Of a stretch of 64,000 nt of DNA, positions 35,341 through 37,646 are shown in pieces. Origin of the DNA: Thermotoga neapolitana DSM 4359 (GTDB lineage Bacteria; Thermotogota; Thermotogae; Thermotogales; Thermotogaceae); assembly GCF_000018945.1 (NCBI RefSeq), contig NC_011978.1, positions 1,334,729 through 1,398,728 of the forward strand, written 5' to 3'. The notes below the pieces were generated by a model. It searched no databases and was not told the origin of the DNA. It saw only the letters and a list, made by a program, of their open reading frames with translations. Positions within the stretch are counted from its first letter, which is position 1. Every line of letters starts with the position of its first letter. Both the position numbers and the translations under genes were made by a program.

Positions 35341-35382
35341 GATTTCACACAGAAGTTACGTGTCTGGTCGTTGAAATGTTAC

Positions 35383-35406
35383 TTGTATTATTGTACAACT
35401 ATACAA
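35383..35406 (+). promoter_or_regulatory. 24-bp operator palindrome before the arsR-type gene
   Basis: From 35383 to 35406 the sequence equals its reverse complement at 20 of 24 positions. The outer arms are TTGTAT/ATACAA and the centre TTGTACAA. It ends 14 bp before the ATG of the ArsR-type regulator and overlaps the expected promoter (TTGAAA at 35371-35376). It is the natural autoregulatory site for that protein. Confidence 0.75.
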
Positions 35407-35419
35407 GGAAGGTGGGAAA

Positions 35420-35689
35420 ATGGGAGTTGAGGAGATCTTCAAGGCGCTTTCATGCAAATGGAGAGTGGAAATACTCAAGGAGATCGCAAAGAGGGACCTT
35501 TGTATGTGTGAACTGGAAGCGATGGACCATCTTGATCCGTCAACGCTTTCAAGGCACATAGCCGTTCTGAAGAGAGCAGGGCTGGTGGACGTGATCCGCG
35601 AAGGGAAGAGAAAAAGACTAGTCTTGAAAGATCCGCGCGTTCTGGAACTTGTGGAACTCGCGGAGAAAATAGCCGAAGGGAGGCAATAA
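35420..35689 (+). CDS. ArsR-family transcriptional regulator
   Basis: An 89-residue winged-helix repressor: LSCKWRVEILKEIAKRDLCMCELEAM, recognition helix DPSTLSRHIAVLKRAGLVDV and wing REGKRKRLVLKDPR. Two cysteines (LCMC) near residue 32 match the ELCVC-type metal/arsenic sensor position of ArsR proteins, so it may sense a soft metal, arsenite or the redox state. It leads a three-gene set with a ferredoxin and an HdrA-like protein and is preceded by a palindromic operator. Confidence 0.9.
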   Translation: MGVEEIFKALSCKWRVEILKEIAKRDLCMCELEAMDHLDPSTLSRHIAVLKRAGLVDVIREGKRKRLVLKDPRVLELVELAEKIAEGRQ

Positions 35690-35692
35690 AAT

Positions 35693-35905
35693 ATGGCGAA
35701 GAACTGGTATCCAGTGATCGATTACGGTAGGTGCACCGGATGTCTGACCTGTGTGAATTTCTGTCCACACGGCGTTTACACGGTCAGAGATGGAAAGCCA
35801 TTGGTTTCAAATCCGGACGCGTGTGTGGAATTCTGCAGGGGTTGTCAGAAGATCTGTCCAGCTGGGGCGATAAATTATTCTGCGGAGGTGAACATCGATG
35901 GGTAA
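35693..35905 (+). CDS. Ferredoxin-like 4Fe-4S protein
   Basis: A 70-residue protein with cysteine clusters CTGCLTCVNFCPHG and CVEFCRGCQKICPAG. The first is a classical CxxCxxCxxxCP cluster and the second is altered (CxxxCxxCxxxCP), so two 4Fe-4S clusters are likely. It begins 3 bp after the ArsR stop with GGGAGG upstream and overlaps the next gene by 8 bp. It probably passes electrons to or from the HdrA-like partner. Confidence 0.88.
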   Translation: MAKNWYPVIDYGRCTGCLTCVNFCPHGVYTVRDGKPLVSNPDACVEFCRGCQKICPAGAINYSAEVNIDG

Positions 35906-36248
35906 GAAGGGCCTTCTTCTGTGTGTCTGTCAGGGAACCTGCCCTTCGTTTCAGAAGATGAACATATTCGAAGTGTTGAACACCCTGAGGAGAGAAAAGG
36001 CGGTTGATTTTGTGGCGATACATCCTCAACTTTGTGCAGACGATGGTGATGTCTTTCTTCAGGAGCTCCTCAGAGGAGCAAACGTGGAAAAACTGTACGT
36101 GGCAGGATGCGATCCCACGATGCAAAGGAAGATGTTCAGGGATGCCTTTGAACTAGCGGGATTTGACAGAGAAAAACACGTGGGTGTTGATATAAGAAAC
36201 ATGACAACAGAAGAAGCTGTGAAAGCCATAAAGGAGGTCATGGAATAA
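35898..36248 (+). CDS. Small HdrA-like N-terminal domain protein
   Basis: A 116-residue protein resembling the N-terminal domain of heterodisulfide reductase subunit A. It has LCVCQGTCPSF, then HPQLCADDGDVFLQELL and VAGCDPTMQRKMFRDAFELAGF, the Cys-containing motifs that hold a 4Fe-4S cluster in HdrA. The FAD domain of HdrA is absent, so this is a stand-alone domain. With the ferredoxin before it and ArsR control, a small redox relay is suggested; the reaction is unknown. Confidence 0.78.
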   Translation: MGKKGLLLCVCQGTCPSFQKMNIFEVLNTLRREKAVDFVAIHPQLCADDGDVFLQELLRGANVEKLYVAGCDPTMQRKMFRDAFELAGFDREKHVGVDIRNMTTEEAVKAIKEVME

Positions 36249-36252
36249 AAAG

Positions 36253-36270
36253 CCCCGCCGGGCGGCGGGG
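36253..36270. terminator. Bidirectional terminator between the redox trio and hcp
   Basis: CCCCGCC (36253-36259) pairs with GGCGGGG (36264-36270), loop GGGC. On the minus strand it is followed by CTTTTT, a good terminator for hcp; on the plus strand only three T follow. It lies between two convergent genes. Confidence 0.88.
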
Positions 36271-37601: not shown

Positions 37602-37646
37602 ATTATAATTAGGTTGTAATAACTCTGTCCGTAACAATTGTTACGG
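37602..37646 (-). promoter_or_regulatory. hcp promoter with shared HcpR-type palindrome
   Basis: The perfect 18-bp palindrome CCGTAACAATTGTTACGG lies at 37629-37646. On the minus strand the -10 TATAAT is at 37602-37607 and the -35 region is poor (GGACAG, 37625-37630). The palindrome centre is about 42 bp before the expected start site, the class II activator position for Crp/Fnr proteins. GTAAC-N4-GTTAC is the known form of HcpR sites. It also lies 9 bp before the divergent regulator gene. Confidence 0.82.

Follow-up and report, generated by a model that had tools for sequence, protein, structure and literature searches.

Architecture of the Locus

The locus is part of the Thermotoga neapolitana DSM 4359 genome, a single contig of 1,884,562 bp, and lies in a stretch of 64,000 nucleotides that was analysed as a whole (the window). 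As originally predicted, three genes follow each other here, confirmed as open reading frames on the + strand, with a gap of 3 bp between arsR and the ferredoxin gene and an overlap of 8 bp between the latter and the third gene. For the 116-amino-acid product of this third gene, the name HdrN is used here. The locus comprises the following features:

35383-35406, strand not applicable: candidate operator of 24 bp with 10 of 12 positions paired, over the likely -10 element at 35386-35391 (palindrome, conservation, genome scan)
35420-35689, + strand: arsR, repressor of the ArsR/SmtB type with a metalloid-type C28xC30 site (open reading frame, Pfam, NCBIfam)
35693-35905, + strand: ferredoxin with eight cysteines (2[4Fe-4S] type) and a second motif CX3CX2CX3C (open reading frame, Pfam/NCBIfam, alignment)
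35898-36248, + strand: HdrN, stand-alone HdrA N-terminal domain with C9, C11, C15, C46 and C71 (alignment, profile, AlphaFold, structure searches)
36253-36270, scored on the - strand, with its T-run on that side: GC-rich, terminator-like hairpin between HdrN and the convergent hcp

The regulator passes the cut-offs of both Pfam HTH_5 (45.2 bits, cut-off 22) and the NCBIfam metalloregulator family NF033788 (62.8 bits, cut-off 55). The cysteine pair claimed for it is C28-M-C30, carried by the stretch DLCMCEL in the sensor helix, where the classic C-x-C site for As(III) is located. A C-x-C is found in 28 of 33 distinct ArsR proteins whose genes precede HdrN by one to three positions, and in 27 of them it occupies the sensor-helix position as judged by eye. 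The six others either have none (L028, L033, L035, L042 and L061) or carry it elsewhere (L080).

The palindrome ahead of arsR (TTGTATTATTGT/ACAACTATACAA) can be extended by palindrome search to longer arms at 35379-35410 with 81% pairing. With up to three mismatches allowed and both strands scanned, the operator has a single occurrence in the 1.88-Mb genome, and its reversed control pattern occurs nowhere in the same scan. In 12 of 13 Thermotogota loci, the region ahead of arsR has a TTGTA...TTGTACAA-like core recognizable by eye (L001-L012 and L017; L010, the one not counted, differs, and L017 ends early, after the first operator half). Because it is unique in the genome and its core recurs among these loci, the predicted palindrome is more than a chance arrangement, and since it is found only once, the repressor probably controls just its own operon. 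An overlap between operator and promoter, which had also been claimed, is likely. The window itself hints at it with TATTAT at 35386-35391 inside the operator, but the promoter scan upstream of arsR lists no + strand sigma-70 match and the -35 is poor. At the aligned positions of L002, a promoter TTGACA-16 nt-TATTAT is readable, the TATTAT of which again lies inside the operator and corresponds to the one in the window.

The ferredoxin, a protein of 70 amino acids, has the cluster cysteines C14, C17, C20 and C24 plus C44, C48, C51 and C55, as expected from a 2[4Fe-4S] sequence. Its second motif is altered, as had been noticed, to CX3CX2CX3C instead of CX2CX2CX3C. The four cysteines of this second motif are kept in all 76 distinct ferredoxins encoded next to HdrN; over both motifs, seven of the eight cysteines occur in 76/76 and C17 in 74/76, and a stricter pattern for both motifs matches 54 of 72 adjacent ferredoxin open reading frames. 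The best NCBIfam match is HgcB, the mercury-methylation ferredoxin (NF040864), yet the score of 48.5 bits stays under the cut-off of 99 bits, and HgcA is not among the neighbour families identified at HdrN loci. Tm1175 of Thermotoga maritima is presumably the orthologue of this ferredoxin. It is described as a 2[4Fe-4S] protein (-395/-490 mV) that supports MiaB in vitro, and its physiological role is called unknown in that Protein Sci. paper, the accessible part of which contains nothing on ArsR, HdrN or arsenic (PMC12929197).

HdrN Has the Fold of the HdrA N-Terminal Domain

HdrN matches no Pfam family over cut-off, and neither Pfam nor NCBIfam has a family dedicated to it; NCBIfam returns only weak HdrA matches (23.2 bits versus a cut-off of 1100). 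A profile built from 62 HdrN members retrieves only HdrA chains from the PDB, with a best E-value of 1.4e-5. The AlphaFold2 model (mean pLDDT 93.7, pTM 0.87) leads to the same family: Foldseek finds seven HdrA chains (E 3e-6 to 7e-5) as its only matches below 0.001, while VIA-align places seven HdrA entries at Z 11.2-13.3 over 113-114 residues, with the next row at 8.6. HdrA is the only strong match in these structure searches, in agreement with the stand-alone HdrA N-terminal domain originally proposed, and the likeness in fold (PDB 5odc, 7bkb, 8rvy) extends across all 116 amino acids. Topoisomerase I TOPRIM, dehydroquinase and other folds (Z at most 8.6) were taken to reflect a common Rossmann-like arrangement, and a Radical_SAM identity was rejected as sub-threshold (Pfam 16.4 bits versus a cut-off of 29.5). 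The catalytic subunit of ferredoxin:thioredoxin reductase is marked by CPC/CPC/CHC motifs, which HdrN lacks, and no such Pfam match was obtained.

HdrN differs from HdrA in standing alone, without the FAD/thioredoxin-reductase domain and the ferredoxin domains, and in an additional loop with C15 and the signature LCVCQGTCPSF. Its cysteines had been called CxxC-type; in fact they form a CxCx3C motif followed by two single residues (C9, C11, C15, C46 and C71). The CxCx3C occurs in 80/80 HdrN loci (the best 80 of 104 relatives), and each of the five cysteines is kept in 90 or 91 of 91 HdrN sequences. Further signatures are HPQLC, CDPxMQxKM and IRNxT. A comparison with full-length HdrA proteins from the same genomes (10 readable of 13, with L115, L126 and L127 left out) divides the cysteines in two: C9, C11, C46 and C71 are common to HdrN and 10/10 HdrA, whereas the position of C15 is an isoleucine in 10/10. 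According to the accessible part of PMC9012536, Cys197 of the partner subunit serves in trans as one of the ligands of the N-terminal HdrA cluster. HdrN ends before the Cys197 position. A stand-alone domain cannot have this ligand, which makes C15 the obvious choice as a putative substitute ligand of the cluster or as a putative reactive cysteine. HdrN may well be derived from, or sister to, the HdrA N-terminal domain, and is predicted to be a compact [4Fe-4S] protein. As far as sequence can tell whether the domain belongs to a larger known complex encoded elsewhere, a search of its own genome with the domain returned only HdrN itself, so no full HdrA was found there by this search.

Distribution and Pairing with Ferredoxin

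Strong HdrN matches are present in 14 of 103 Thermotogota genomes, one of which (G064) has an internal stop, and remnants are found in two more, G016 and G096. Decay has left pieces of both ferredoxin and HdrN in G096 (L111:5711-6121) and pieces of HdrN near ArsR and ACR3 genes in G016 (L106:5020-5172). A wider search of genome contigs yielded 104 stretches encoding HdrN relatives, the best 80 of which were kept (61-78% identity). Their hosts include Dictyoglomota, Caldisericota, Chloroflexota, Bacillota, Omnitrophota, relatives of Geobacter, Thermococcus and others. Few forks are resolved (18 of 59 starred) in a tree of 62 HdrN rows with 20 labelled groups; more than one change is suggested for several phyla, which fits transfer or loss and proves neither. 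Carriage on plasmids was rejected, with no match in 72,556 plasmid records.

A search across anaerobes, suggested with the original prediction, shows the HdrN-ferredoxin pair to be recurrent. Among the best 80 of the 104 loci, 72 have a ferredoxin gene on the HdrN strand no more than 600 bp away; it precedes HdrN in 51 of them and follows it in 21. Eight have no adjacent ferredoxin, including L023, where almost no sequence is available upstream of HdrN. In two loci of Margulisbacteria (L067, L071), HdrN is accompanied by ArsP-type permeases with no ferredoxin alongside.

Many HdrN Genes Lie among Arsenic Genes

Efflux genes were counted in 50 genomes holding 52 HdrN, within a distance of 5 kb; ArsP_1 was counted if full-length and over cut-off, and rows under about 100 bits were left out. 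Within this distance lie 20 of 56 ArsP_1 genes (0.24 expected), 10 of 25 ACR3 genes over cut-off (0.10 expected) and 5 of 7 ArsG genes over cut-off (0.04 expected), which places arsenic-type efflux genes near HdrN 80- to 130-fold above expectation. Of 133 ArsR-family genes in the 36 genomes searched for them, 37 likewise lie within 5 kb (0.55 expected), spread over 27 genomes. Poisson values are not to be taken literally, because the loci are related and the genomes were selected by HdrN; the enrichment of arsenic genes is very large despite this kinship. A separate gene-model tally of neighbours at 92 loci contains same-genome duplicates (e.g., L005/L021), misses five loci and was not relied on. 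At least one efflux gene is found within 10 kb of HdrN in 26 of the 50 genomes; 24 have no ArsP, ACR3 or ArsG over cut-off within that distance, and nine have none anywhere in the genome.

Individual relatives illustrate this context. In G008 (L105), one strand carries in a row ArsR, ArsC (140 bits, cut-off 174.3), an ACR3-like permease (199 versus 282.8), ferredoxin, HdrN and a dihydrolipoyl-dehydrogenase-like flavoprotein (441.7 versus 408.8). The same order of ArsR, ArsC-like, permease-like and flavoprotein genes occurs in G011 (L114) without the ferredoxin-HdrN pair, and G011 is not among the Thermotogota genomes matching HdrN. These related genomes form a natural presence/absence pair for ferredoxin-HdrN between permease and flavoprotein. 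In the congener G091, an SBF/ACR3-like permease gene (ACR3 95.7 bits, cut-off 282.8; SBF 103.3 bits, cut-off 24.3) directly follows HdrN on its 3' side as a fourth gene, which neither the window nor G094 has. Several relatives adjoin OsmC, DGC, NifX-like or SLAC1 genes instead. The operon in the window shares its regulator type with the ars operons of anaerobes (ArsR, ArsC, ACR3, ArsP, ArsEFG-type) and falls in the same clusters in relatives, but itself contains no efflux pump or arsenate reductase. ACR3 has no match in the genome of the window. About 174 kb away (L112:6533-8209; G000:C1), this genome has a second operon of metalloid type, made up of ArsR (EMCVCQ), an ArsP-family permease and an ArsE-family thioredoxin.

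The three genes had been said to have no obvious partner and to answer to an unspecified redox or metal stress. Since relatives place the pair repeatedly among ACR3, ArsP, ArsC and ArsG, the absence of a partner is not supported in general, nor is the open-ended stress. What is supported of the original idea is a redox pair under ArsR control, the fold of the HdrA N-terminal domain and a metal(loid) setting.

Proposed Function and Alternatives

HdrN and ferredoxin are the constant elements of these loci; a C-x-C ArsR and metalloid efflux genes are the common extras. The trio probably contributes electron transfer to metalloid detoxification, a part that has been overlooked. The most economical account, to which we give somewhat better than even credence, is a metalloid-induced (arsenite-type), ferredoxin-fed [4Fe-4S] electron-transfer module, running from ferredoxin to the HdrN cluster and serving arsenic/thiol detoxification. 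It builds on the observed gene order, fold, conservation, operator and genomic association with arsenic genes, whereas inducer, cluster, direction of electron flow and acceptor are supplied by the model. A thiophilic agent such as As(III) or Sb(III) would bind C28/C30 of ArsR, and the ligand-bound repressor, as family knowledge suggests, would leave the operator over the -10 region of its self-regulated operon. Derepression would yield a low-potential ferredoxin and HdrN. Reduced ferredoxin would then pass electrons to the HdrN cluster, with ligands drawn from C9, C11, C46, C71 and the new C15, which would stand in for the partner-subunit cysteine used by full HdrA. From there, electrons may reach a thiol/disulfide carrier or an arsenic species as part of detoxification; an ArsE-type thioredoxin or ArsC could be the disulfide carrier, and the acceptor may also be of a different kind altogether.

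Another possible, clearly less probable role is that of a general module against sulfane-sulfur or oxidative thiol stress, in which ArsR would sense persulfide or a redox change, ferredoxin and HdrN would reduce disulfides or persulfides, and arsenic islands would be one home of several. HdrA belongs to disulfide metabolism, and many loci have OsmC, DGC, NifX-like, thioredoxin-like (ArsE family) or AhpD-like neighbours. It is the loci with OsmC, DGC, NifX-like or SLAC1 genes and no arsenic efflux gene, as well as the 24 genomes without such a gene nearby, that keep this role under consideration. The strong enrichment of arsenic-type efflux genes and the predominance of the As(III)-type C-x-C in the upstream ArsR argue against it.

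HdrN could instead act as a metalloid chaperone, its five cysteines binding As(III)/Sb(III) and passing it to a permease in the manner of ArsD, with the ferredoxin only keeping thiols reduced. Five invariant cysteines within 116 amino acids, ACR3/ArsP permeases nearby and the gene orders in G091 and G008 would suit such a role. It is nonetheless unlikely: four of these cysteines have aligned counterparts in the Fe-S domain of HdrA, the constant partner is the ferredoxin (72 of the best 80 of 104 loci) and not a permease, and HdrN has no ArsD match in Pfam and was not assigned to ArsD.

Finally, the 3' end of hcp (hybrid cluster protein, TIGR01703, 626.7 bits) lies on the opposite strand, 24 bp from the HdrN stop. 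A perfect HcpR-type palindrome of 16 bp, CGTAACAATTGTTACG, stands at 37630-37645 between the divergent hcp and a CRP/FNR-type regulator; it is the single such site in the window, with none upstream of the trio. This arrangement fits the HcpR2-hcp regulon described for Thermotogales in the accessible text of PMC1274295. Although hcp-frdX (ferredoxin) pairs are known from other phyla, membership of the trio in an Hcp/HcpR nitrosative-stress system is very improbable and was rejected, as the palindrome is found upstream of hcp only, the hcp query matched just four of 100 loci (L001-L003 and L044) and Thermotogales HcpR2 regulons contain only hcp (accessible part of PMC1274295); the neighbouring Hcp/HcpR pair looks incidental.

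The metalloid-induced electron-transfer module also allows a bolder, rather doubtful extension. HdrN may be the founder of a family, so far undescribed, of small [4Fe-4S] reductases that depend on ferredoxin and occur in bacteria and archaea. In these, C15 would make the cluster of the HdrA N-terminal domain, otherwise dimer-dependent, an active site complete in itself and able to reduce an arsenic, other metalloid or thiol substrate directly.

Novelty and Significance

The components of the trio are members or relatives of known families. No description of the ferredoxin-HdrN pair was found in the literature searched, which covered titles and the starts of abstracts and left most subscription journals outside, so that one may exist in print. 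"HdrA" does not occur in the accessible main text of an arsenate-respiration paper with many mentions of ferredoxin (PMC9751042). The literature searched likewise gave no description of a family of stand-alone HdrA N-terminal domains with C15, of its almost constant association with this ferredoxin or of its location in arsenic islands.

The arsenic that anaerobes encounter is mainly As(III) and thioarsenicals, and the well-known steps of its detoxification are efflux, methylation and thiol-linked arsenate reduction. Direct reduction of an arsenic substrate by HdrN would, if true, be a new enzymatic step in anaerobic arsenic detoxification. With HdrN, the N-terminal cluster of HdrA, otherwise buried in large complexes, would also have a minimal model in soluble form. 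More broadly, a ferredoxin-fed protein fixed in the arsenic islands of many phyla would tie low-potential metabolism to metalloid resistance.
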